Notes under the pieces: model-generated
Told to the model about the DNA's origin: nothing
The model's input: the letters and a program-made list of their open reading frames with translations, nothing else
The model's database searches: none
Virus record (IMG/VR): IMGVR_UViG_3300000553_003777
Span: 1 to 33,340 of that record
Length of the DNA: 33,340 nt
Strand: one strand, 5' to 3'
Origin: a virus
In this document: piece after piece, positions 3 to 27,140 of the stretch
Numbering within the stretch: the stretch's first letter is position 1
How the letters are laid out: each line of letters begins with the position of its first letter
Position numbers and translations under genes: made by a program

Positions 3-365
3 ATGGAAATAAAGAGATTTGAAGCATATAAATACGGTTATGGTGGTAAAGGATTAAAATCTAATCGTAATCAAGTTATTGAAGAAATGTTTGATATTTT
101 TCAAGATGCTGATTTTTTAGGTTATGAGATTGTTATGACTGAATATCATCCAAAAGATGAATTTTTATATTTAATTGTAGATAAAAATGGCAAATATGAA
201 AATTCTGGTAATTGTATTAAATTAGATTTATCAGGATTAGGAATTGAAATTGGTAAAAAACATTGGAACCAAGAAAAAGAAGAAATGGATGAATTTATTC
301 CAGAGGTAAATCTCGATAGTGATAATGTTAAAACTATAAAAAATATTAAAAAATATAATTTATAA
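3..365 (+). CDS. Small protein with CTS-like N-terminus and KYNL C-terminus
   Basis: A 120-residue acidic protein that I do not recognise. It begins MEIKRFEAYKYG, close to the short N-terminal motif (MKxxKxFExF) shared by many otherwise unrelated proteins here, and ends KKYNL like six others. In T4, similar N-termini are capsid targeting sequences on internal head proteins, so packaging into the head is an inference. There is no Shine-Dalgarno sequence; the upstream region lies outside the window. No membrane segment or cysteine motif is visible. A real gene is likely because the reading frame is long and both termini match the family; the function is unknown. Confidence 0.75.
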   Translation: MEIKRFEAYKYGYGGKGLKSNRNQVIEEMFDIFQDADFLGYEIVMTEYHPKDEFLYLIVDKNGKYENSGNCIKLDLSGLGIEIGKKHWNQEKEEMDEFIPEVNLDSDNVKTIKNIKKYNL

Positions 366-388
366 TTTTTTATTTGAATTTAATTTTG

Positions 389-396
389 TATTTTTG
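389..396 (+). promoter_or_regulatory. Bacteroidota-type -7 box (TAnnTTTG)
   Basis: TATTTTTG followed by TAAAAAT, ending 14 bases before the ATG at 411. It matches the -7 element of Bacteroidota housekeeping promoters. No good TTG -33 element is visible at the usual distance, so the call is moderate. Confidence 0.4.
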
Positions 397-410
397 TAAA
401 AATATAAATT

Positions 411-566
411 ATGGGACTTTTAACAGAACAAATAGAACATCTTGAACATTACCTTGGTGGTAAGTCCCATTCAAGACGATGGATGAAAAATCAAATGAAT
501 CGTAAAATAAGACGAGTTAAAAAAACTGAAATTCCTAAAGTTGGTTATAAAGGTTGGGAATACTAA
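411..566 (+). CDS. Small basic protein, unknown function
   Basis: An ORF of 51 residues starting MGLLTEQIEHLEHYLGG, followed by a strongly basic stretch (SRRWMKNQMNRKIRRVKK) and ending YKGWEY. It lies directly downstream of a TAnnTTTG box and a typical A-rich, Shine-Dalgarno-less leader. The stop is 10 bases before the next start, so the two genes are probably co-transcribed. The basic centre could bind nucleic acid, but there is no recognisable domain. Confidence 0.6.
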   Translation: MGLLTEQIEHLEHYLGGKSHSRRWMKNQMNRKIRRVKKTEIPKVGYKGWEY

Positions 567-576
567 AATTTATAAA

Positions 577-831
577 ATGGAGTATTGGGAAAAAGCGGCT
601 AAGGAAGCCAAAGAAAGAAAAGAACTTCAAAAAAAATATCCTCTTTTGGGTAAAAAAGTACGAAGAAAAGGTATAAGTAAATGGGAAGAAGGTATTGTAA
701 TATTACATAATCCTGAATGGTCAGATAGTGAAGAATTATCTATCAAATATTCAGATAATGATTTAGAAGGATTATATGGCTTACCTTTTGAAGTTTGGGA
801 TGAAAAATTAAAAAAATGGGTAAAAAATTAA
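577..831 (+). CDS. Small charged protein, unknown function
   Basis: I take the ATG at 577 (MEYWEKAAKEAKERKELQ) rather than an upstream in-frame TTG at 541, because 541 lies inside the preceding gene. The 84-residue product has a charged N-terminal helix, a central KVRRKG turn and a C-terminal part rich in acidic and aromatic residues (FEVWDEKLKKWVKN). No family is recognised. It follows the 51-residue gene with a 10-base gap. Confidence 0.6.
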   Translation: MEYWEKAAKEAKERKELQKKYPLLGKKVRRKGISKWEEGIVILHNPEWSDSEELSIKYSDNDLEGLYGLPFEVWDEKLKKWVKN

Positions 832-925
832 ACTTTTAAAACATTTTAACCTATATCAAAAACAGAAAAAAACGACATTTTTAAAGAAATATATAAATTG
901 AGTTTTTTATTTCGGAAAAGTTCCG

Positions 926-933
926 TAAATTTG
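926..933 (+). promoter_or_regulatory. Bacteroidota-type -7 box (TAnnTTTG)
   Basis: TAAATTTG followed by TAAAAG, 45 bases before the ATG at 979. It is a perfect match to the Bacteroidota -7 consensus, and the nearest TTG is slightly too far upstream. It would drive the 34-residue peptide gene and its terminator. Confidence 0.45.
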
Positions 934-978
934 TAAAAGATTCAAAAAACAAATAAACATTTTAATAGAATAGAAATT

Positions 979-1083
979 ATGAACAACATTAGGAGAAATA
1001 CAACCGTGGCAACCACAACGACCGCCCCCGTAACAGGAGGCAGACCAGCGATGGACTCGGGTGTATTATACCTATTTGAATGA
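979..1083 (+). CDS. 34-residue peptide, unusually G+C-rich
   Basis: A 34-residue ORF reading MNNIRRNTTVATTTTAPV, then TGGRPAMDSGVLYLFE. Its codons are far richer in C and G (acc, gcc, ccc, ggc, gcg) than any neighbour. It stands alone between a TAnnTTTG box and a strong terminator, so it forms its own short transcription unit just before the tRNA array. No membrane segment is seen. It could be a recently acquired small protein, a leader peptide or a small RNA with a chance ORF. Translation is plausible but unproven. Confidence 0.5.
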   Translation: MNNIRRNTTVATTTTAPVTGGRPAMDSGVLYLFE

Positions 1084-1107
1084 TATTTATTGTCAGAGAA
1101 AGTGTAA

Positions 1108-1147
1108 GAAAACCCGAGGAGTGAAAAACTTTTCGGGTTTTTTGTTT
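1108..1147 (+). terminator. Intrinsic terminator after the 34-residue peptide
   Basis: AACCCGA (1111-1117) pairs with TCGGGTT (1133-1139), extended by A-T pairs on both sides, and is followed by a T-rich tract (TTTTTTGTTTTT). Confidence 0.85.
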
Positions 1148-1180
1148 TTAATAATGTTCTTAAAAGTATTGAAATTAAAC

Positions 1181-1255
1181 ATAGTAGTTCCACAGATGGT
1201 TATATGGACTTGCCCTGGAAGCAAGCGTTCGTGGGTTCGAATCCCTCCTACTATA
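1181..1255 (+). tRNA. tRNA-Pro(UGG)-like with C at position 33
   Basis: The acceptor stem ATAGTAG/CTACTAT is perfect; the anticodon stem CTTGC/GCAAG and T arm with loop TTCGAAT are good. The seven-base loop CCTGGAA puts TGG at 34-36 (1216-1218), but position 33 is C instead of the near-universal U, and 37 is A where proline tRNAs have G. The body is almost identical to the next tRNA, with a different acceptor stem. Amino-acid identity is uncertain. Confidence 0.65.
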
Positions 1256-1263
1256 CAAAATAA

Positions 1264-1338
1264 CTGGGTGTTCCACAGATGGCTATATGGACTTGCTTTG
1301 GAGGCAAGCGTTCGTGGGTTCAAATCCCTCTACCCAGA
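1264..1338 (+). tRNA. tRNA-Pro(UGG)-like, paralogue of the preceding tRNA
   Basis: Acceptor CTGGGTG/TACCCAG, anticodon stem CTTGC/GCAAG, loop TTTGGAG with TGG at 1299-1301 and a normal U33. It shares nearly all of its D arm, anticodon stem and T arm with the tRNA at 1181, but the acceptor stem is different. A37/G38 are unusual for proline. CCA is not encoded. Confidence 0.7.
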
Positions 1339-1347
1339 CAAAATAAT

Positions 1348-1424
1348 GGTCCTGTAATGGCGGAGTCTTCTAAACTCTATGTGCATAACGGATGAAAATG
1401 TGGGTTCGAATCCCTCCTGGATCA
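1348..1424 (+). tRNA. D-arm-less tRNA-Arg(UCU)-like with long variable region
   Basis: Acceptor GGTCCTG/CTGGATC (one mismatch, one G-U), then TA at positions 8-9, but only five bases (ATGGC) before the anticodon stem GGAGT/ACTCT, so there is no room for a D stem. The loop CTTCTAA gives anticodon TCT (1369-1371). The variable region is 21 bases (1379-1399). The T arm GTGGG/CCCTC has loop TTCGAAT. It shares this plan with the element at 4803. Confidence 0.6.
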
Positions 1425-1440
1425 CTAAAATTAATGAATT

Positions 1441-1651
1441 ATGAAAAAAGATGAATCAAAATTAATAGGAATAGTTTATTTCTGTGAAGAATTAAAGAAA
1501 GAAATAGTATTGAAAGATACCTCAAAATATAGTATATCAGCAACTTCACAGGAATGTGATACTTGTTGGCGCGCGTTCACACGGTGAAGTAACTATGTAT
1601 GTTGATTGTGAATGTGGTAAAAATCACGATATCATAATTAATAGTTGGTAA
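1441..1651 (+). pseudogene. Zinc-finger-like small protein split by one base
   Basis: The ATG at 1441 opens MKKDESKLIGIVYFCEELKK and continues to ECDTC before stopping at 1587 (48 residues). Dropping one T in TGTTGG at 1564-1569 restores a 69-residue protein continuing GARSHGEVTMYVDCECG and KNHDIIINSW, ending at 1651. The restored frame yields a sensible four-cysteine pattern (CxxC...CxC), strong evidence that the downstream frame was once, or still is, translated. It could be decay, +1 frameshifting or an assembly indel. It sits between tRNA genes. Confidence 0.55.
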
Positions 1652-1656
1652 AAATA

Positions 1657-1731
1657 GGGGGATGGAACTGCTAGGGTGGTCATCTGATTTGCACTCAGAA
1701 AAACAGAACGATTCGAATTCGTTATCCTCCA
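1657..1731 (+). tRNA. tRNA-Ala(UGC)
   Basis: Acceptor GGGGGAT/ATCCTCC contains the G3-U70 wobble that identifies alanine tRNAs. Anticodon stem TCTGA/TCAGA, loop TTTGCAC with TGC at 1690-1692; T stem AACGA/TCGTT with loop TTCGAAT. CCA is not encoded. Confidence 0.8.
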
Positions 1732-1770
1732 CAGAATTTAGGTTCTTTGACATATTGGAAAATTTAAGTT

Positions 1771-1843
1771 GGGGGCACATGTTCCAAGGCTGGCGAGAGA
1801 CCTTTGCAAGGTTTCTGGGAGATTTCGATTATCTCTGTCTCCA
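1771..1843 (+). tRNA. tRNA-Ala(UGC), second copy
   Basis: Acceptor GGGGGCA/TGTCTCC, again with G3-U70; anticodon stem AGACC/GGTTT, loop TTTGCAA with TGC at 1805-1807; T stem GAGAT/ATCTC with loop TTCGATT. Positions 8-9 are CA instead of the usual UA. The sequence is quite different from the first alanine tRNA, so this is not a recent duplicate. Confidence 0.75.
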
Positions 1844-1891
1844 CTATAAAATGTTTGAGTTCATTTTAGAAAATTTCCACTTTTTTATTTT

Positions 1892-1899
1892 TATATATA
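1892..1899 (+). promoter_or_regulatory. Late-type TATATATA promoter candidate
   Basis: TATATATA after a T-run, 12 bases before the HNH start at 1912. The same box lies before many genes on both strands here and resembles the T4 late promoter TATAAATA. Confidence 0.4.
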
Positions 1900-1911
1900 C
1901 AAATAAAAAAT

Positions 1912-2778
1912 ATGGGTAAGTGTAAAAATTGTGGTGATGAAACTAAAAAGAAAAATGTTTATTGTTCTTTGAAATGTAGAAATATTTATGTCAATAAAAA
2001 TTTAAGAGACTATTCAAAGTTTAAAGAGACAATGAAAAAGAAAAGAGATTCGGCAAAAATAAAATACAATGAGAATCCTAGAAAATGTAAAAATTGTGGA
2101 TCGATATTAAAATTTGAAAAGAATTGGAAAGATGTGAGTTTTTGTAATCATTCTTGCTCAGCCGAATACTCTAACAAAAGACGAAGTGGATATGAATATA
2201 ATTTAACTGAAAAAGGACTTAATAATATTATAAAATCAAATAAAAATAGAAATGGAAATCCTTCAGTTGAATATTATAAAAATCCTAAACATTGTTTAAA
2301 TTGTGGTAAAATTATTGAATATTCAAAGAGAAATAATGGAAATTGTGGCTGGAAATGTAGAAAAGAATATTATTCTAAAAATAAAGAAGATTATCAAGTA
2401 TATTATGAATTATCAAGATTTAAGTTTAATTTGAATGATTTTAATGAAGAATTTGATTTCAGTTTAATTGAAAGATATGGTTGGTATAAAGCAAAAAATA
2501 ATGGTGATAATGTAGATGGAGTTAGTAGGGATCATATGTTTTCTGTGAAAGAGGGATTTAGAAGATTGATAAACCCTTTATTACTTGCTCATCCGGCAAA
2601 TTGTGAATTGATTATTAATAAAAAAAATCAAAGTAAATGTGATGGTTGCTCACTAACAATAAAACAACTTTTAGAAAAGATAAAAGAATTTGAAAATAAA
2701 TATGGTAAGTATTATGATAAAGAAATGAAAGTATATGTAGAATTAGAAGAATTAAAAGTATTGTGGTCTCTTAGTTAA
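1912..2778 (+). CDS. HNH homing endonuclease with zinc-finger repeats
   Basis: This 288-residue protein starts MGKCKNCGDETKKKNVYC and carries three CxxC...C/H-type treble-clef units (about residues 4-25, 58-80 and 125-145) that would bind DNA. The C-terminal catalytic part has SRDHMFSVKEGF, LLLAHPANCEL and IINKKNQSKC, matching the order of HNH motif residues (DH, H-AN, N-K). Homing endonucleases of this kind cut intronless alleles and spread into relatives. The gene sits inside the tRNA array and its last 14 bases are also the 5' acceptor strand of tRNA-Thr(GGU), so insertion did not destroy the tRNA. Confidence 0.85.
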   Translation: MGKCKNCGDETKKKNVYCSLKCRNIYVNKNLRDYSKFKETMKKKRDSAKIKYNENPRKCKNCGSILKFEKNWKDVSFCNHSCSAEYSNKRRSGYEYNLTEKGLNNIIKSNKNRNGNPSVEYYKNPKHCLNCGKIIEYSKRNNGNCGWKCRKEYYSKNKEDYQVYYELSRFKFNLNDFNEEFDFSLIERYGWYKAKNNGDNVDGVSRDHMFSVKEGFRRLINPLLLAHPANCELIINKKNQSKCDGCSLTIKQLLEKIKEFENKYGKYYDKEMKVYVELEELKVLWSLS

Positions 2779-2837
2779 GATGGTGAGAATACGAACTTGG
2801 TAAGTTTGAGACCCCAGATCGTTACTGGGAGAGACCT
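2765..2837 (+). tRNA. tRNA-Thr(GGU)
   Basis: Acceptor GGTCTCT/AGAGACC is perfect; anticodon stem CGAAC/GTTTG, loop TTGGTAA with GGT at 2799-2801; T stem CCCAG/CTGGG. The T loop is ATCGTTA, with A54 and U58 instead of U54 and A58. The first 14 bases overlap the end of the HNH gene. Confidence 0.85.
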
Positions 2838-2838
2838 C

Positions 2839-2905
2839 AAAGATAAAGAATACATTCAGCAATTAAAAAACTTTCTATGGTGAAACAAATCGTATTCTGT
2901 TCTTT
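2839..2905 (+). ncRNA. Structured RNA motif, copy 1
   Basis: Outer helix AAAGA/TCTTT (2839-2843, 2901-2905), internal loop TAAA/TGT, inner helix GAATAC/GTATTC (2848-2853, 2892-2897), then ATTCAGCAATT and a small apical hairpin TTTC/GAAA enclosing an ATGGT-type loop. Three other copies have the same order of parts with different outer helices. It directly follows tRNA-Thr and probably belongs to the same transcript. Confidence 0.75.
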
Positions 2906-2911
2906 AAAAAA

Positions 2912-2986
2912 TTGAACTAAAAGATTACATACAGCAATTAAAAAAAACAAACTTCCAATTTGTAAAAAAAGATAATCTGAGTTCAA
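2912..2986 (+). ncRNA. Structured RNA motif, copy 2
   Basis: Outer helix TTGAAC/GTTCAA (2912-2917, 2981-2986), internal loop TAAAA/TGA, inner helix GATTA/TAATC (2923-2927, 2973-2977), then CATACAGCAATT and an apical hairpin ACAAA/TTTGT. The third inner pair is T-A where the other copies have A-T, a compensatory change. It ends 5 bases before tRNA-Gly(GCC). Confidence 0.75.
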
Positions 2987-2991
2987 AATTT

Positions 2992-3063
2992 GCAGATGTA
3001 GTATAATGGTTATTACGGGGGCTTGCCAAGTCTCATATGCCTGTTCAATTCAGGTCATCTGCT
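2992..3063 (+). tRNA. tRNA-Gly(GCC)
   Basis: Perfect acceptor GCAGATG/CATCTGC, D arm GTA...TAC with TAATGG loop, anticodon stem GGGGC/GTCTC (two G-U pairs), loop TTGCCAA with GCC at 3025-3027, T loop TTCAATT. Confidence 0.88.
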
Positions 3064-3071
3064 CAATAAAT

Positions 3072-3154
3072 GCGGCTATCGTATAATGGTGACGAGAGTT
3101 TGATTATGTCGGTCTTCCAAACCGAGGATGAGAGTTCGATTCTCTCTAGCCGCC
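3072..3154 (+). tRNA. tRNA-Gly(UCC) with enlarged D arm
   Basis: Perfect acceptor GCGGCTA/TAGCCGC, anticodon stem TCGGT/ACCGA, loop CTTCCAA with TCC at 3116-3118, T loop TTCGATT. Between position 9 and the anticodon stem there are about 28 bases instead of about 16; ATAAT and ATTAT could form a longer D stem. The rest is canonical. Confidence 0.82.
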
Positions 3155-3157
3155 AAT

Positions 3158-3241
3158 GTTCCCGTAGTGTAATTGGTAACACCTCACGCTTACATCGTGA
3201 AAACCTAGTCGGATTTACAGGTTCGAGTCCTGTCGGGGAAT
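3158..3241 (+). tRNA. tRNA-Val(UAC) with long variable region
   Basis: Acceptor GTTCCCG/CGGGGAA (a G1-A72 mismatch and one G-U), D stem GTG/CAC, anticodon stem TCACG/CGTGA, loop CTTACAT with TAC at 3191-3193, T stem ACAGG/CCTGT. The variable region (3201-3216) is 16 bases and can form a short stem AAACC/GGATT with one mismatch, which is atypical for valine tRNAs. Confidence 0.8.
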
Positions 3242-3247
3242 ACAAAA

Positions 3248-3321
3248 GTTCTTATGGTGTAATTGGCAACACATCACTTTGACGGAGTGAAGACTTATAG
3301 GTTCGAGTCCTATTGAGAACA
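3248..3321 (+). tRNA. tRNA-Val(GAC)
   Basis: Acceptor GTTCTTA/TGAGAAC, D stem GTG/CAC, anticodon stem TCACT/AGTGA, loop TTGACGG with GAC at 3281-3283, T stem ATAGG/CCTAT with loop TTCGAGT. Canonical, unlike the preceding valine tRNA. Confidence 0.88.
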
Positions 3322-3326
3322 CAGAT

Positions 3327-3402
3327 GGCTCTTAAGCATTTAATGGATGATGTCTAACCTTGTAAGTTAGGGAAGTCGGATCGTTACCGAAATGAGCCTC
3401 CA
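3327..3402 (+). tRNA. tRNA-Thr(UGU), CCA encoded
   Basis: Acceptor GGCTCTT/ATGAGCC (one mismatch), anticodon stem CTAAC/GTTAG, loop CTTGTAA with TGT at 3361-3363, T loop ATCGTTA (A54/U58). This is the only tRNA here with a clearly encoded CCA (3400-3402). Confidence 0.85.
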
Positions 3403-3430
3403 AATTAGAAAAAAGTTAGATTTTTTTATT

Positions 3431-3438
3431 TATATATA
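3431..3438 (+). promoter_or_regulatory. Late-type TATATATA promoter candidate
   Basis: TATATATA after a T-rich stretch, 22 bases before the ATG of the HNH gene at 3461; same context as other late-type boxes in the window. Confidence 0.4.
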
Positions 3439-3460
3439 ATAATAAAAATAATCAAACTAA

Positions 3461-4162
3461 ATGAAGTTAAAAAAAGATTATGTAAAAATATTATCTTGGG
3501 CAAAAAAAATCAAGGCTATAGAAATATTGGGAGGTAAATGTCAACATTGTGGTGATGAAAATGTATTTCATTTAACATATCATCATATGAATCCAGAAGA
3601 AAAAGAATTTAACATGTCATCTATAAGACAAGGGAGATGGAGTAAAATTGAAAAAGAATTAAATAAATGTATATTATTGTGCTATAATTGCCATAATGAA
3701 ATACATAAATTAAATAATAATGAAAACAGTAGATTTAATGAAAATAAGAGATTATTTTTAGAATTTAAAAATATTGATTCTTGTAAAAAATGTGGTTATA
3801 ATAAATATAATGGTTCATTACATTTTCATCATGAAAAGGAAAAATATTTTACTTTGAATAGAGTTATGGTCACTTATAAAACTGTTGACGAATTAAGTGA
3901 AGGCATTACAAAAGAATTAAATAAATGTATAGTTTTATGTGCAAATTGTCATGAAGAACTTCATCATAATACAGGATTTTTTGAAGAATACAAAGAAGAA
4001 ATTTATGAAAAATCTAGAAATGTTAGAGAAAATACTCCAAAGATAGATAGAGAAATAGTAAAAAAAATGTACTTTGAAGAAGGTAAAAGACAAATAGATA
4101 TAATTAGATTTTTTGGTTGCACTAAAGGTACAATTAGTGATATTATAAAGAAATTAAAATAA
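3461..4162 (+). CDS. HNH endonuclease with two HNH units and a C-terminal HTH
   Basis: The 233-residue protein has two tandem HNH/treble-clef units: CQHCGDE...YHHMNPEE...CYNCHNEIH (about residues 28-85) and CKKCGYN...HFHHEKE...CANCHEELH (about 105-170). The last 40 residues (REIVKKMYFEEGKRQIDIIRF and CTKGTISDIIKKLK) look like a helix-turn-helix. It is a full-length paralogue of the minus-strand gene at 26427-27140, with the same order of parts. Its stop is one base from tRNA-Thr(CGU). Its role is probably homing into RNA-gene loci; DNA recognition would come from the HTH and the duplicated zinc knuckles. Confidence 0.85.
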   Translation: MKLKKDYVKILSWAKKIKAIEILGGKCQHCGDENVFHLTYHHMNPEEKEFNMSSIRQGRWSKIEKELNKCILLCYNCHNEIHKLNNNENSRFNENKRLFLEFKNIDSCKKCGYNKYNGSLHFHHEKEKYFTLNRVMVTYKTVDELSEGITKELNKCIVLCANCHEELHHNTGFFEEYKEEIYEKSRNVRENTPKIDREIVKKMYFEEGKRQIDIIRFFGCTKGTISDIIKKLK

Positions 4163-4163
4163 T

Positions 4164-4235
4164 GCCGTTTTAGTTTAACAGGTAGAATAGTTGATTCGTA
4201 ATCATCAGATGCTGAATCGTACTCAGTAAGCGGCT
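4164..4235 (+). tRNA. tRNA-Thr(CGU), copy 1
   Basis: Acceptor GCCGTTT/AAGCGGC (one G-U), anticodon stem GTTGA/TCATC (one mismatch), loop TTCGTAA with CGT at 4197-4199, T stem GCTGA/TCAGT with loop ATCGTAC (A54/U58 again). It starts one base after the HNH stop codon. Confidence 0.78.
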
Positions 4236-4253
4236 CAATATCGGGTATTTGGG

Positions 4254-4272
4254 GAGCCAGGTCACTTGGCTC
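4254..4272 (+). other. Short hairpin between threonine tRNAs
   Basis: GAGCCA pairs with TGGCTC around a 7-base loop and is followed by AAAATAAAA. There is no T-run, so it is a processing signal or spacer hairpin rather than an obvious terminator. Confidence 0.4.
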
Positions 4273-4290
4273 AAAATAAAATAGTTATGT

Positions 4291-4361
4291 TCTGGAGTAA
4301 TATAATGGTATTATTAATCATTCGTAATGATTAAATGGTGGTTCGATCCCACTCTCCAGAT
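4291..4361 (+). tRNA. tRNA-Thr(CGU), copy 2
   Basis: Perfect acceptor TCTGGAG/CTCCAGA, perfect anticodon stem AATCA/TGATT, loop TTCGTAA with CGT at 4323-4325, T loop TTCGATC (normal U54). It has the same anticodon as the previous tRNA but an unrelated body. Confidence 0.85.
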
Positions 4362-4371
4362 CAATAAATAG

Positions 4372-4418
4372 CAGATGTGTTAAGATGTGTTGTGGTTCGA
4401 ACCCGGCATACAACAGAA
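4372..4418 (+). other. Possible tRNA remnant
   Basis: GTGGTTCGAACCC has the look of a T arm, and TACAACA could be a 3' acceptor strand, but no convincing anticodon arm or 5' acceptor precedes it. It is followed by an open stretch reading TEEEAAKLVATNF then stop, perhaps the tail of a lost gene. Low confidence. Confidence 0.25.
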
Positions 4419-4510
4419 GAAGAAGCAGCAAAACTTGTTGCTACAAATTTTTAAACTTTTATTATATAATATTATATCAAAATAAGATTAAATTTTTTGA
4501 TTTATCATAA

Positions 4511-4585
4511 GGCCACATAGCTCAGCGGATTAGCAGCGACAGCCTTCTAAGCTGTAGGTCGAAGGTTCGAATCCTTCTGTGGTCA
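4511..4585 (+). tRNA. tRNA-Arg(UCU), canonical
   Basis: Acceptor GGCCACA/TGTGGTC, D arm GCTC...GC with AGCGGATTA loop, anticodon stem ACAGC/GCTGT, loop CTTCTAA with TCT at 4546-4548, T stem GAAGG/CCTTC. It is a fully normal cloverleaf, unlike the D-arm-less element at 1348 with the same anticodon. Confidence 0.92.
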
Positions 4586-4613
4586 CACTTTTCCTTTTGG
4601 AAGATCCAAAAAA

Positions 4614-8737: not shown

Positions 8738-9532
8738 TTAGATAATAGGTTGTCCTAAAAAGTAATGATTTCTTTTTGAAATTTTTATATCACTTTCATA
8801 AGATTCCTTATCAAATAATAATATAGTTTGCGAACCCCATACAAAATAACCTAATTTATCTGCTATTTCTATTGTGTCACCTTTTTTAACGAGAAAATTG
8901 AAATCTTGAATTGCAGATTCACCAACTAATAGCATATAAACTGGTTTCTTTTCGGTTTCAAATTCTAAGAACCAGAGAGTATTTTTACCAAATAAACCTA
9001 ATTTTTTATCGACTGGAATTGCTCTTTTTAATTTACCAGAAATTGGCGAATGAATATTATGATAATAACTCACCAGAAGTTTCATATTAACGAACCAATA
9101 GTTTTCATCAACTCCTAAATTTTTAAGATCCTGAGCAACCTGAGTAGTGGATTTTTTCAATCTAATGATGCTTGAGGTATCTTTAACTTGTCCTATAGAT
9201 TCAATATTACATTCGTTAGGAATTATAATTTGAGATTTTTTTGCTTGTTTTTTAATTTCTTTGAATTTATCTGGTACTATACTTCTATTAAAAAAGTCCA
9301 TAAAGTTCTCATAGTCATTGATAAACCATTCTTGATGGACTTCTGATGTCTTCATCCTCCAAAATTTGTTATTTTTTGCGTCTTTCGACTTGAAACACTC
9401 TATTAAATTTTGTATATTTTCAGTACCTATTTCCTTGTATTTCACATATTTAAGTTTTGAAAGTATGTATCTCTCGTTTGCCCTAATAGATACTAATTTA
9501 AATAACTCTTCGAGGATTTTTTCATCATTCAT
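8738..9532 (-). CDS. psd: Phosphatidylserine decarboxylase-like protein
   Basis: 264 residues with the order of motifs of phosphatidylserine decarboxylase, the pyruvoyl enzyme that makes phosphatidylethanolamine: DFFNRS (79-84), YYHNIHSP (156-163, family YHxxHSP) and YFVWGSQTILLF (229-240), which contains the Gly233-Ser234 bond where the proenzyme cleaves itself. The conserved PADG motif that supplies the Asp of the self-cleavage triad reads PNEC (105-108), so Asp is replaced by Glu or lost; activity may be altered. No N-terminal membrane helix is obvious, and it is shorter than E. coli Psd (322). It starts 4 bases after the stop of the DUF3326 gene, so the two are co-transcribed. Confidence 0.85.
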   Translation of the reverse strand: MNDEKILEELFKLVSIRANERYILSKLKYVKYKEIGTENIQNLIECFKSKDAKNNKFWRMKTSEVHQEWFINDYENFMDFFNRSIVPDKFKEIKKQAKKSQIIIPNECNIESIGQVKDTSSIIRLKKSTTQVAQDLKNLGVDENYWFVNMKLLVSYYHNIHSPISGKLKRAIPVDKKLGLFGKNTLWFLEFETEKKPVYMLLVGESAIQDFNFLVKKGDTIEIADKLGYFVWGSQTILLFDKESYESDIKISKRNHYFLGQPII

Positions 9533-9536
9533 TTCA

Positions 9537-10814
9537 TTAATTTATTATTTTTGTCGGACCAATTGGTCTGTTTAAGGAATAAGGACTTATTCCTGATTTT
9601 AAAGCCACAAGGATTCCTGCTGCTTCTAAATAATTTTTTGCTTTAAAGAATTGATTTTTATTCCAAGGCAATAATGAAAGATCATTTTTCATTAAATTTG
9701 TTTCATCTTCAATTGCTATAACTGGAATATTTTGTTCTAATGCAGAAATTAATGGTAAACCTATACATCTATCTGGTGTTACTAATGCACTTATATTTCT
9801 ATTTGTAATAACACCAGGTTGGCTTACGGGCTCAACAATTCTTGGTGATTGATACATACCTTTGATTGTGCAAAATAGTTCTGTTGTAGATAATATTTCG
9901 GGAGTTTTTCTAGGATCAATAATTTCAAATGGATATTCTAAAAACATTTTTTCTAAAACTGGTGCGTGAGCACAAGGTACATCATAAAGATTTGATATTG
10001 TATGTGTGAGTAGCGCTTCCGCAGATCCCCAAGGATTAGCAAGGTTTTTATCATTACTATAATAATTATCTAATAATTCTTGTGTATCACCATCTAACAA
10101 TGTATATAAAATAAATGAATCATAATTATCTTTATGTTGTTCAATGATATTTGTTAATTTTTCAAGTTTGTTTATCTTACCTGTTGCCATACCGAGTTCA
10201 TTATAAAATATTTCATAATAAGGTGTATCACTCAATTCAATAACATCTATTTCACAACCAAGTGTCACTCTTGCAGCTGATGCCATATTAATAGGACGAA
10301 AGTTATGATAATGATTACTGGTGTTGGTATCAAAAATTAAAAGAATTTTGTTCATTTTAGTTGGTGCAAGTCCAATAGTACCCATCATAAATCTATTTAA
10401 TATACTGCCTTCGACATAAAGGGTATTTGTTGTCATTTCATTTATATCTGCAGCATTTACAACATTTGGATGTGTAATCAAGGTGTCAGCAACATTACCA
10501 AGAAGTCTTGCTGATGGATTACCATCACCAGAATTACCACCTACATCTGCTCTAATACCTGTTGGAATAATTTGAACCACATTAAATGTAGTTTCATCTT
10601 TAATTTTTATTGGATTGAACTCGAATATATTCTTATATTGATGATTACCAATATTTTCTATTTCAGCATATTCACATTCTATATTATTATTTTTATAATC
10701 TATAATAGCAAATCTTGAAATATTTCTATTTTTAAAAAATTCTTTTAATCTATTAAAATTTCCTTTTGAATTAAAAGAAAATGTTACTTTTTCATTTTTC
10801 TGTGAAACTTCCAT
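9537..10814 (-). CDS. DUF3326 family protein
   Basis: 425 residues. The core (about residues 78-420) matches the DUF3326 family as I remember it: VVQIIPTGIRADVGGNSGDG, then ARLLGNVADTLITHPNVVN (followed by AAD), then NTLYVEGSILNRFMMG and, near the end, GVITNRNISALVTPD. The glycine-rich GGNSGD loop and THPNVVN look like a ligand site, but the biochemical role of the family is unknown to me. The first 75 residues are an extra domain. Its start overlaps the end of the split GIY-YIG gene by 23 bases, and its stop is 4 bases from the Psd-like gene, suggesting a joint function, possibly in lipid or membrane metabolism (inference). Confidence 0.75.
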   Translation of the reverse strand: MEVSQKNEKVTFSFNSKGNFNRLKEFFKNRNISRFAIIDYKNNNIECEYAEIENIGNHQYKNIFEFNPIKIKDETTFNVVQIIPTGIRADVGGNSGDGNPSARLLGNVADTLITHPNVVNAADINEMTTNTLYVEGSILNRFMMGTIGLAPTKMNKILLIFDTNTSNHYHNFRPINMASAARVTLGCEIDVIELSDTPYYEIFYNELGMATGKINKLEKLTNIIEQHKDNYDSFILYTLLDGDTQELLDNYYSNDKNLANPWGSAEALLTHTISNLYDVPCAHAPVLEKMFLEYPFEIIDPRKTPEILSTTELFCTIKGMYQSPRIVEPVSQPGVITNRNISALVTPDRCIGLPLISALEQNIPVIAIEDETNLMKNDLSLLPWNKNQFFKAKNYLEAAGILVALKSGISPYSLNRPIGPTKIIN

Positions 10815-16071: not shown

Positions 16072-17088
16072 TTATTTTTTAAACAAGTTTGAAATTGACT
16101 CGTTTGCATTCATTCTTAGAATTGTAATTCCAAGTAATTCAGATACGCTCAGAACTTTAATTTTATCTGATTTTCTGTATAATGGAATACTATCTGTAAT
16201 CACAATTTCTGTAATCAAAGATTTTTCGATTTTATCATAAGCAGGTCCTGATAGGACTGCGTGAGGAATACAAGCCCTAACACTTTTTGCACCTTTTTTT
16301 GTCATAAGAATATCAGCGGCTTTTGTGATTGTTCCTCCTGTATCAATAATATCATCAATAAAAATAACATCACAACCATTCACATCACCAATAAGTTCCA
16401 TTTTTTCAATAGTATTGGCGGCACCTCTTTCTTTGTACATAAAAATCATACGGGTTTTAAAGTAATTTGCATATGGTTTTACTCTTTTTCCACCACCTTC
16501 GTCAGGTGAGCCCATTACAAGATTTTTAAGCCCCAATGATTCAATGTATGGCATAAAAATCCACGAACTTTGAAGTGCATCAACTGGAATATCGAAGAAG
16601 CCTTGAATTTGATCCGCGTGAAGGTCAATTGTGATGATTCTAGTGGCACCTGCCTTTGTAATTAGATTTGCAAGTAATTTAGCAGTAATAGGAACTCTGG
16701 GTCTATCTTTTCTGTCTTGTCTTGCCCATCCAAAATAAGGAATAACGGCAACAACATCTAATGCTGATGCTCTCTTTGCTGCATCAATCATTTGAAGAAG
16801 TTCCATTACGGTTGGAGAAGAAGAAATAAAAGTTTTTAGAATTTCCATAGCCTCAATGTGCTTTTCCTCTGGAATAAGGTTGAGAATTTTATACATTTCA
16901 TTGTAGAATGAATGTAATGATGATACAATGAAAATTTTGTCTCCTCTAACATTTTCTTTCAATTCTGGACAAAATTCACCATCAGAAAAAATGGTAAGGG
17001 AACTATCACTCAAAGTCGTACCATAAGAATTGGCGATTTTCTCTGCCAAATGTGTTGATTTTGATGTTGAAAAGATTTTAACTGCCAT
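16072..17088 (-). CDS. prs: Ribose-phosphate pyrophosphokinase (PRPP synthetase) homologue
   Basis: 338 residues with the family motifs in order: FSDGEF (34-39), IPYFGWARQDRKDRP (116-130), DLHADQIQGFFDIPVD (155-170), GSPDEGGGKRVK (193-204) and the PRPP loop DDIIDTGGT (245-253). PRPP synthetase transfers pyrophosphate from ATP to ribose 5-phosphate for nucleotide and NAD synthesis. Between VSSLHS and SPTVMELL there is an insertion of about 28 residues (61-88) where bacterial enzymes have a short loop. Phage homologues can instead act on ADP-ribose in NAD-restoring pathways, so the substrate is open; no nicotinamide transferase gene is in the window. A TAnnTTTG box lies upstream. Confidence 0.9.
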   Translation of the reverse strand: MAVKIFSTSKSTHLAEKIANSYGTTLSDSSLTIFSDGEFCPELKENVRGDKIFIVSSLHSFYNEMYKILNLIPEEKHIEAMEILKTFISSSPTVMELLQMIDAAKRASALDVVAVIPYFGWARQDRKDRPRVPITAKLLANLITKAGATRIITIDLHADQIQGFFDIPVDALQSSWIFMPYIESLGLKNLVMGSPDEGGGKRVKPYANYFKTRMIFMYKERGAANTIEKMELIGDVNGCDVIFIDDIIDTGGTITKAADILMTKKGAKSVRACIPHAVLSGPAYDKIEKSLITEIVITDSIPLYRKSDKIKVLSVSELLGITILRMNANESISNLFKK

Positions 17089-20619: not shown

Positions 20620-20771
20620 AAATATTTGAAAGACAAAAAGAATTTTGTATAGATTGTAAATTTAGTTTTGTGAGAGAAAAACAACTTTTTTGTGCTAAAA
20701 CAATAGGTATAACAAAACCGAACAATAATTGCGAACAATATGAAATAAAAAATAAAAAGAAAATTAAATAG
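20616..20771 (+). CDS. Small four-cysteine protein
   Basis: 51 residues: MKIFERQKEFCIDCKFSFVR, EKQLFCAKTIG and NNNCEQYEIKNKKK. The CxxC...C...C pattern could bind one zinc or an iron-sulfur cluster. It starts in an ATGA overlap with the previous gene and ends the operon before the TATATATA box of the dUTPase fusion. Confidence 0.6.
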   Translation: MKIFERQKEFCIDCKFSFVREKQLFCAKTIGITKPNNNCEQYEIKNKKKIK

Positions 20772-20790
20772 AATAGGAACGATAGATTTT

Positions 20791-20798
20791 TATATATA
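20791..20798 (+). promoter_or_regulatory. Late-type TATATATA promoter candidate
   Basis: TATATATA after a T-run, 16 bases before the ATG at 20815. Confidence 0.42.
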
Positions 20799-20814
20799 CT
20801 ATAAAAATGAATAT

Positions 20815-22137
20815 ATGAAACTTAAAGTAAATTGTGAAATATGTGGAAAAGAAGAATTGGTATTTCTAAGTAGATCAAAAAAATATAAAACCTGTTCAGT
20901 AAAATGTTTGAGTGAATATAATAAGGCTGAAAATGATTTAACTTGTTGTGTGTGTAATAAAAAATTTCATGTGAAGCCTTTTAGAGTAAATAAAATAAAA
21001 AATGAATTTGGAATAACTTGTTCTAAGAAATGTTCAAATAAATTAAAAACAAAAATGTATATGGGAAGAAAAAATCCGAACACAAAATATTTAAAATTAG
21101 ATGATAATTTTTTCAAAAATGTTGATAGCGAAGGTAAAGCATATTTATTGGGTTGGATAGCAAGTGATGGTACTGTAGGCTTATCTAGTATTACAATAAA
21201 AATAAATAATAAAGATGTAAAATGTTTAGAGTCTTTGAGTGATATTATTTGTCAAGAATTACCAATTGTACCTAATAAAGATATGGTATCTTTAACTATT
21301 TCATCTAAAACTATTTCGAAAAATGTATGTGAATTATTAAATATATTACCAGAAAAAAAATCAGATAAGGTTTGTTTTCCTTCTCTTGAAAAAGATGAAT
21401 TAAAATGGGCTTTTTTGAGAGGGTTTTTTGATGGTGATGGATCTGTACATGGTATATCTGAATCTCACAATTCACCATATTGTAATATCACAACAAATTC
21501 TGAATCTATGAGAAAAACTATAATGGAATTTACAAAAATTCCATGTTCAGAAAATAAAAATCAATTAGGATGGAGTGGAAATAATGCACTAGATTTTCTA
21601 GATAAAATCTATAAAAATGCCAAATATAGACTTTTAAGAAAATATGAATTATACTTGGACATTTCAACTTGGGTGCCATCTGTATCTTATAGTAAATATT
21701 TCAAAAATGAACATTGCAAATGGTCAAAAACAAGAACGGATGCAATTTCACCTTCAAAAGAAAGGGCTTCTGATTCTGGATATGATTTAGTTTTATTAGA
21801 GAAGATAAAAACCGTAGGTAAAGTTGAATTTTATGACACAGGAATAAAAGTTAAACCAAATTTTGGTTATTATTTTCAGGTAGTACCTAGAAGTTCAATA
21901 AGCAAAACTGGTTATATGTTGGCTAATTCTGTTGGTATAATAGATAGAACTTATTTAGGAAATATTATAGTAGCATTAATTAAAATTGATGATTCTATGC
22001 CTGATTTGGTTTTACCTATGAGATTAGTTCAAATGATTCCAACACCAATTGTTCATTTTGAATTAGAAGAAGTTGATAGTTTTGATGTTAATGAGACACA
22101 TAGAGGTGAAGGCGGTTTCGGTTCATCAAATAAATAA
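20815..22137 (+). CDS. dut: LAGLIDADG homing endonuclease fused to dUTPase
   Basis: 440 residues in three parts. Residues 7-75 hold two zinc-finger units (CEIC...CSVKC and CCVC...CSKKC). Residues 105-285 form a LAGLIDADG endonuclease with both signature helices, YLLGWIASDGTV (110-121) and FLRGFFDGDGSV (200-211). Residues about 302-440 are a complete trimeric dUTPase: SDSGYDL (319-325), PRSSI (358-362), NSVGIIDRTYLG (371-382), RLVQMI (403-408) and RGEGGFGSS (430-438). dUTPase hydrolyses dUTP to dUMP, keeping uracil out of DNA. No in-frame ATG stands at the junction, so dUTPase is made only as the fusion unless it is processed. Intein splice residues are absent. Confidence 0.9.
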   Translation: MKLKVNCEICGKEELVFLSRSKKYKTCSVKCLSEYNKAENDLTCCVCNKKFHVKPFRVNKIKNEFGITCSKKCSNKLKTKMYMGRKNPNTKYLKLDDNFFKNVDSEGKAYLLGWIASDGTVGLSSITIKINNKDVKCLESLSDIICQELPIVPNKDMVSLTISSKTISKNVCELLNILPEKKSDKVCFPSLEKDELKWAFLRGFFDGDGSVHGISESHNSPYCNITTNSESMRKTIMEFTKIPCSENKNQLGWSGNNALDFLDKIYKNAKYRLLRKYELYLDISTWVPSVSYSKYFKNEHCKWSKTRTDAISPSKERASDSGYDLVLLEKIKTVGKVEFYDTGIKVKPNFGYYFQVVPRSSISKTGYMLANSVGIIDRTYLGNIIVALIKIDDSMPDLVLPMRLVQMIPTPIVHFELEEVDSFDVNETHRGEGGFGSSNK

Positions 22138-22141
22138 AAAT

Positions 22142-26019: not shown

Positions 26020-26385
26020 GGGGGTGACCGATTTTGACAGTATTGTATAATGAGGTTATCGGCAAGTAACGCATTTTCTAATAAGGCGTTTTATAAATTT
26101 ATAGGAACAAACAATAAATGGCGAAGCACATACGCATATCGTTACTTCAAATTCAACATTTTCAGTTGCTGGAACTGTTGTTGAGAGTGGAGTTCTCGTA
26201 GCCTAAACAGAAAAAACCAGACCATCTTTTTAGTAAACTATATTGAGACTTTCAAAAATGTTTAGTGGATTTGACAATTACCAATTAAAAATTATCTATT
26301 TCGTTCTGATTAGAAAAATAGAACTAAACTTGTAGAAGATGCCGAAAGGCGTTATTGGACCGGGGTTTGAGTCCCCGCACCTCCA
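26020..26385 (+). ncRNA. ssrA: tmRNA (transfer-messenger RNA)
   Basis: The 5' end GGGGGTGACCGATTTTGACAG and the 3' end (T arm CGGGG-TTTGAGT-CCCCG, then CACCTCC and discriminator A) form the alanine-type acceptor GGGGGTG/CACCTCC with the G3-U70 pair needed by alanyl-tRNA synthetase. The internal reading frame resumes at GGC (26120) and runs to TAA (26204-26206), giving a 28-residue tag that starts GEAHTHIV and ends ESGVLVA. Bacteroidota tags also start Gly-Glu and end in small hydrophobic residues but have about ten residues. tmRNA rescues stalled ribosomes and tags the product for proteolysis; this phage copy may alter host quality control. CCA is not encoded. Confidence 0.93.
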
Positions 26386-26416
26386 CATTAACTTATTGAT
26401 TATCAATAAGTTAAAT

Positions 26417-26447
26417 AAAAAGCCAACTATTTAGTTGGCTTTTTTAA
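26417..26447. terminator. Terminator shared by the tmRNA and the convergent HNH gene
   Basis: AGCCAACT/AGTTGGCT (26421-26428, 26433-26440) with A-run before and T-run after. A second long inverted repeat, TTAACTTATTGAT and its complement, lies just upstream (26388-26414). The hairpin also encodes the last residues of the HNH protein on the minus strand. Confidence 0.88.
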
Positions 26448-27140
26448 TTTCAATTCTTTTATAATATTTGAAATTGTGCCCTTTGTCGCACCAAAATATT
26501 TTGCAATTTCTATTTGCTTTGTTCCGCTTGTATATAACTCATTAACCTTATTTCTGTCTATTTTTTTCATAACTTCTTTTTTTGTTTTTGATTTTTTAAT
26601 AATTTCAATTTTGAATTTTTCAAAAAAATCAATATCGGAGTGTTCTTTTTTGTGACAATTTTTACAGATGACTACACATTTATTTAATTCTTCGGCAATT
26701 TTAATAGATAGATCTTCTATACTATTAAAAGTGATATAAATTTCACCTATCATAAAATCTTTTTCGTTTTTATCTAAATGATGAAAATCTAAAGATGAAT
26801 TACATTCATTATACCCACATTTTTCACATCCAGAGATACCCTTATATTCTAAATATATTTTTTTATTGTTTTTCAATTTACTGTCATTTTCATTGGAATG
26901 TATTTTACCATGGCAATTTCCACATAACAAAATACATTTTTGAATTTCTTTTTCAATGATTGACCATCTACAATCTTGTATCGCCCAAATTGTAGCATCT
27001 TTTTCTGAACTATTTTTATGATGAAATTCTAAGGAAAAAATATTTGTTTCACCACACTTTTCACATTTCCCACCTAAATATTCAATTGCTTTAATTCTTT
27101 TAGATAATCTATCTATTTTTACCCATTCTCTTTTTGTCAT
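26427..27140 (-). CDS. HNH endonuclease with two HNH units and HTH, paralogue of 3461
   Basis: 237 residues with the same plan as the protein at 3461: CEKCGETN...FHHKNSSE...CGNCHGKIH (about 28-85), CEKCGYNE...DFHHLDKN...CKNCHKKEH (about 108-170), and a C-terminal HTH (KVNELYTSGTKQIEIAKYF then TKGTISNIIKELK). The two share long stretches at roughly half identity. This copy lies next to the tmRNA 3' end, the other abuts a tRNA-Thr, so the family favours RNA-gene neighbourhoods. A TATATATA box (27161-27168) lies 20 bases upstream. Confidence 0.86.
   Translation of the reverse strand: MTKREWVKIDRLSKRIKAIEYLGGKCEKCGETNIFSLEFHHKNSSEKDATIWAIQDCRWSIIEKEIQKCILLCGNCHGKIHSNENDSKLKNNKKIYLEYKGISGCEKCGYNECNSSLDFHHLDKNEKDFMIGEIYITFNSIEDLSIKIAEELNKCVVICKNCHKKEHSDIDFFEKFKIEIIKKSKTKKEVMKKIDRNKVNELYTSGTKQIEIAKYFGATKGTISNIIKELKLKKPTK

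Follow-up and report, generated by a model that had tools for sequence, protein, structure and literature searches.

The window, here the whole stretch of 33,340 nucleotides that was analysed, is a virus record of 33 kb that includes tRNA genes and a tmRNA. On its plus strand, one uninterrupted open reading frame (ORF) encodes a LAGLIDADG homing endonuclease followed by a complete dUTPase (Table 1). Elsewhere, the window encodes two HNH-type endonuclease-like ORFs, one of them amid the tRNA genes, a ribose-phosphate pyrophosphokinase homologue, and a phosphatidylserine decarboxylase homologue, a phospholipid-synthesis gene on a phage, which adjoins a DUF3326 gene.

Table 1. Features of the window, with the fused homing endonuclease gene (HEG) and dUTPase resolved into segments.
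Feature	Position	Strand	Basis
11 tRNA genes	1181..4586		
HNH-type endonuclease-like ORF	3461..4162	+	
Phosphatidylserine decarboxylase homologue	8738..9532	-	Pfam 4.8e-18; this ORF and the next assigned by listed order
DUF3326 gene	9537..10814	-	1.5e-72
Ribose-phosphate pyrophosphokinase homologue	16072..17088	-	phrog_619, 1.8e-39
Leader; nucleotide homology to L002/L173 starts here	20761..20814	+	blastn block 20761-22140, 78% identity
HEG-dUTPase fusion, one ORF, 440 codons (440 aa); ATG at 20815, stop at 22135-22137	20815..22137	+	ORF calls, Pfam, PHROGs, AlphaFold2, motifs
Cys-rich N-terminal segment, aa 1-94	20815..21096	+	Paired Cys; no Pfam match; dN/dS 0.26 vs L002
Two-repeat LAGLIDADG endonuclease domain, aa 104-290	21124..21684	+	Pfam; PI-PfuI/I-DmoI structural matches; dN/dS 0.20 vs L002
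LAGLIDADG motif 1 AYLLGWIASDGT, catalytic acid D118	21139..21174	+	Motif alignment
LAGLIDADG motif 2 AFLRGFFDGDGSV, catalytic acid D208, D206 adjacent	21409..21447	+	Motif alignment
Linker, variable and low-confidence, aa 291-297	21685..21705	+	Family alignment, AlphaFold2 model
dUTPase domain, aa 298-440; motifs SDSGYD / PRSS / NSVGIIDRTYLG / RLVQ / RGEGGFGSS	21706..22134	+	Pfam, motifs, structure; dN/dS 0.05 vs L002
tmRNA gene; predicted tag unusual, ends GVLVA	26020..26386	+	Rfam 81.9 bits
HNH-type endonuclease-like ORF	26427..27140	-	

Both parts of the ORF were recognised by Pfam (LAGLIDADG_3, 3.8e-9; dUTPase, 2.3e-13) and by PHROGs, which placed an endonuclease family at aa 57-284 and a dUTPase family at aa 282-438. 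TIGR00576 also matched the dUTPase at 1.6e-23, yet below that model's whole-protein cut-off. An AlphaFold2 model based on an alignment of 24 family members (mean pLDDT 85.7) aligned with PI-PfuI (Z 17.8) and I-DmoI (Z 15.4) over aa 104-290, and with the dUTPase of Mycobacterium tuberculosis (Z 13.9, 111 residues, 32% identity) over aa 299-412. The nuclease part holds two LAGLIDADG motifs, both catalytic acids, and the two-repeat alpha-beta fold seen in the solved structures of I-DmoI and PI-PfuI, though these are intron- or intein-encoded and have no metabolic enzyme attached. The dUTPase part displays a beta fold and motifs I-V, including the motif III aspartate and the C-terminal motif V, in agreement with the intact dUTPase described in the first-pass annotation. 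It resembles the homotrimeric dUTPases of M. tuberculosis and phage T5 in fold and motifs, while these enzymes come without the 300-residue N-terminal nuclease part. The protein would accordingly be expected to cut DNA at a target site and to act on dUTP. The N-terminal segment had been called a zinc finger; it is indeed Cys-rich and, from its sequence, is presumed to bind zinc and contact DNA, yet no Pfam model matched it and it varies within the family.

The two domains share one frame, as first proposed, and a frame break was found neither in the window nor in its relatives: the fused frame is also open in the independent contig L002 (77% protein identity) and in many others, excluding a sequencing artefact. 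The earlier statement that no start codon lies between the parts applies to ATG, whereas an in-frame TTG (21655) and GTG (21673) are located near the junction. Internal initiation of a free dUTPase would depend on these two codons and is unsupported, since the valine there is not conserved; the junction position in relatives reads W-V/T/Q-P, and the valine is often missing. No cleavage motif is conserved in the linker across the fused family alignment. Ahead of the ORF, ATGAATATATGA at 20807 was also considered as a tiny 5' end of a native dut, and dropped as it is not conserved in L002.

The fusion is not confined to the window. A first scan with the dUTPase part found six loci, all six of them fusions, and wider contig scans together with an all-frame domain search brought the family to at least 33 members, 33 distinct fused dUTPases being used for the tree. 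Alignment-based scans were required, as single-sequence scans of viral contigs with the whole protein or the HEG alone gave no matches. Most fused proteins are found in phage contigs, both AT-rich and GC-rich, and every viral locus is metagenomic; others are in contigs that binning assigned to Microscilla, Polyangia, a cyanobacterium, and Methylomirabilis. Among bacteria, domesticated fusions are rare, with 1 in 282 Myxococcota genomes and 2 in the 291 of the Microscilla order. The fusion was also absent from 50,697 deposited phage records, in which no single place reached 80% coverage of any of the four fused queries. In the dUTPase tree, a branch with SH-aLRT 92 separates the fusions from all plain outgroups, the fused side also taking in three short or plain members. 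Fused dUTPases are 52-91% identical to that of the window, against about 36% for plain phage dUTPases. One of the plain members within the clade is the dUTPase of L105, from which the HEG has possibly been lost; directly upstream of it is a DNA polymerase ORF (84-3938) with two apparent intein-like insertions.

As nearest sisters, the fused clade has plain dUTPases, including those of L051 and L060, where a free-standing HEG lies directly 3' of plain dut. A tree of the HEGs, with weakly supported inner branches, likewise unites these free-standing HEGs with those of the fused family in one clade. Not all close free-standing relatives adjoin dut, as L189 carries one with no dUTPase nearby. A 545 kb virus contig (L199) has four LAGLIDADG HEG ORFs in tandem within 5 kb. 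Within the fused family, the window and L002 are related phages with the element at one shared position, a case of vertical inheritance. The ORF also recurs, at 59% protein identity, amid unrelated surroundings in L010/L168.

Several relatives retain pieces of a resident dut gene, all known from metagenome assemblies, and these suggest where the element inserted. In L037, the 5' half of the resident dut reads ...IWSRSGLAAEFDIEKGAG and ends at the ATG of the fused ORF. The break comes after '...EKGAG', immediately ahead of motif III VID, where uninterrupted relatives go on GAGCIDENYRGE into motif III; the contig itself stops within the fused dUTPase, leaving the right border outside. In L060, an intact plain dut is followed by the free-standing family HEG and then by GYRGEVLVRFKVVPS, a displaced dut 3' end starting from GYRGE (motif III), of which 35 of 41 nt match the intact upstream copy, and by an out-of-frame GLGSTGG. 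As the fused ORF of L037 and the free-standing HEG of L060 both border on motif III, which holds the catalytic Asp, one common site is indicated, resting on these two loci. Furthermore, a dut tail follows 40-140 bp past the fused stop in L018, L021, and L026, reading DRIAQMVFAP...RGTGGFGSTGK in the first two and being weaker in L026. In two cases, a second dut copy nearby has an altered motif III, with GIIE and YQG in L090 and a deletion and general decay in L013. The nuclease lineage of this family thus appears, from these sequences, to be aimed at dut genes, with the HEG beside or within its own putative target in L037 and L060. The window ORF itself is intact and has no dut remnant beside it, and most family members likewise lack one. 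The free-standing HEG of L060 also seems, by eye, to contain a TnpB-like transposon gene (about 1655-2985), a selfish element within a selfish element.

The hosts of the fused gene may have come to depend on it, as no other dUTPase was found on 10 of the 11 fused phage contigs of at least 90 kb. In the two Microscilla genomes (9.3 and 9.8 Mb), the fused gene is the sole PF00692 gene. It precedes nucleotidyltransferase (NTase) and TPR genes, and among 20 other genomes of the order that were examined, 13 have the same NTase behind a plain native dut, indicating that the fused gene took the native dut slot. The Microscilla nuclease is dead, SDG being replaced by ANG and GDG by DAYG, despite an intact predicted fold, and the replacement in situ could therefore have occurred by ordinary recombination. 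The idea put forward in the first-pass annotation, that fusion to a useful enzyme makes a selfish nuclease hard to lose, is well supported at its core by an old family that serves as sole dUTPase and in which the nuclease decays and the dUTPase is kept. The apparent targeting of dut and the replacement of the native gene in situ had been missed.

Judged by substitution rates against the nearest relative, L002, both domains of the window fusion are under purifying selection (Table 1), as in L018 against L026, where dN/dS was 0.09 for the Cys-rich segment, 0.07 for LAGLIDADG, and 0.03 for the dUTPase, although all such figures are rough, with dS near or above 1 in several comparisons. Both nuclease acids are kept in 20 of 32 members, including the window, and lost in the other 12, which takes seven or more changes across the tree, whereas the dUTPase motifs are intact in every aligned member. 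The dUTPases of several marine and other phages (L024, L028, L029, L031, L032, L020, and L096) carry as their N-terminal domain a dead LAGLIDADG relic under purifying selection. Because dN/dS of the dead domain in marine phages is 0.15-0.18, it is more than junk, and it may either be needed in folded form for the dUTPase or have gained a new role. The catalytically dead member L064 was modelled with the two-repeat fold complete (pLDDT 89.5, pTM 0.86), and most dead members retain the segment NNALDFLGKLY. These observations would suit a single ancient fusion in which the LAGLIDADG fold became an accessory to the dUTPase, in tethering it to DNA, packing, or regulation, and in which homing has ended, also in the window. 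Yet a purely structural role would make the catalytic acids superfluous in the 20 members that keep both, and the dut remnants at the insertion borders favour mobility. Domestication throughout the family is therefore unlikely, though the strongest of the alternatives.

Phage HEGs frequently adjoin genes of nucleotide metabolism, and an ordinary free-standing HEG could have landed by chance upstream of dut and in frame with it, contributing neither to spread nor to dependence. Such an accident would hardly yield at least 33 distinct fused proteins that form a single clade across genomes unlike in GC, without any plain sister nearer than the base of the clade apart from the three short members, and with the fused dUTPases resembling each other as closely as they do; this explanation is very improbable. 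Even less probable is a functional coupling of the kind first suggested, in which dUTP binding or assembly of the dUTPase trimer controls or concentrates the nuclease. dUTPases of this fold are homotrimers as a rule, and pTM is high for the L064 model, but the linker is variable and of low confidence in the window model. I-DmoI acts as a monomer. By analogy, the window domain, holding both repeats, could do so as well, and a trimer gathering three nucleases is not needed. Finally, a decayed intein or group I intron, with the dUTPase as 3' extein or exon, is the least credible: such elements often house LAGLIDADG nucleases and in L037 a 5' part of dut precedes the ORF, yet neither Pfam nor a further domain search found a Hint or intein domain, in line with the intein residues first reported as absent, there is no N-extein or HN-Cys/Ser/Thr junction and the linker is not conserved, no Rfam intron RNA was found in the window, L060, L051, L037, or L018, and every fused ORF has a complete dUTPase including the N-terminal strand and motif I, superfluous for an interrupted gene.

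The reading preferred here is that the window ORF is probably a dut-aimed LAGLIDADG HEG whose frame ends in its own complete, diverged rescue dUTPase. The sequences themselves show the fusion and its single clade, the dut remnants at several members, the in-situ replacement in Microscilla, and the repeated loss of the nuclease with the dUTPase kept. The nuclease would cut plain dut at the conserved motif III codons, and repair of the break from an element-bearing genome would insert the element or swap out the resident dut. The fused dUTPase, its DNA too diverged for cutting, would then assume dUTP hydrolysis, making the invasion non-lethal. Subsequently, the resident dut would decay and the ORF of the element would become needed by the host. 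Once all neighbours carry the element, the nuclease would be free to decay, while the ORF would be undeletable because the dUTPase shares the start codon of the nuclease. A free-standing HEG with a resupplied dut 3' end, as in L060, could represent the ancestral stage and the full-length fused copy a later step, which agrees with the dUTPases of L051 and L060 being the nearest sisters. Exact target, homing, and repair-driven insertion are postulated along with both enzymatic activities. The balance tips slightly towards the wider proposal that the family is a natural home-and-rescue drive, which targets dut active-site codons, carries a cut-proof fused dUTPase, spread among unrelated phages, and entered bacterial chromosomes, where it replaced native dut and became the sole dUTPase, after which the nuclease was dispensable and the fused domain stays.

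The closest analogue is the mobile ORFs (mORFs) of fungal mitochondria, described in atp6, atp9, cox2, and nad3 of Glomus sp. and in atp6 of Allomyces macrogynus (PMC3630166). There, an HEG ORF enters a core gene and supplies a foreign copy of the disrupted part, leaving the native 3' end downstream. L060 shows this arrangement for dut, and L037 and L018 in part. However, mORFs resupply only a C-terminal part that is joined to the native 5' part, whereas the fused family brings a whole dUTPase in frame, in phages and bacteria, and its target is the gene of a free enzyme of dUTP metabolism. Synthetic HomeR gene drives similarly link a nuclease against an essential gene to a recoded, uncuttable rescue copy (PMC7968924), but these are engineered CRISPR systems in animals, while the fused family is a natural protein fusion in phages with putative cutting. 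The same two-domain architecture is probably present in a 'dUTP diphosphatase' of Clandestinovirus (A0A8F8KKJ2, BFVD), as its 386-residue predicted structure aligns nearly full length with the window and L064 models (398 and 389 columns, 26-27% identity). Unlike the phage and bacterial family, Clandestinovirus is a giant virus of amoebae, and its genome paper mentions LAGLIDADG endonucleases, not the dUTPase. None of the ingredients is new in itself, be it LAGLIDADG HEGs, dUTPases, or HEGs that resupply part of a gene. Literature searches on dUTPase with LAGLIDADG or homing endonuclease returned no report of such a fusion, nor is a whole enzyme that is fused to a nuclease, replaces the attacked gene in phages, and is captured by bacteria found in the literature searched.

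The usual view of HEGs is that they persist by hiding in introns, inteins, or intergenic space and disappear after reaching fixation. An element whose single polypeptide also supplies the function that it destroys would explain long persistence, and it opens dependence on a selfish gene to direct testing. If the proposal is true, the fused family would be nature's equivalent of the engineered home-and-rescue drives, and Microscilla would mark a clear route from a selfish nuclease to a permanent domain of a cellular enzyme. Across phages, a foreign copy could then displace a metabolic gene even though the new enzyme brings no selective advantage.
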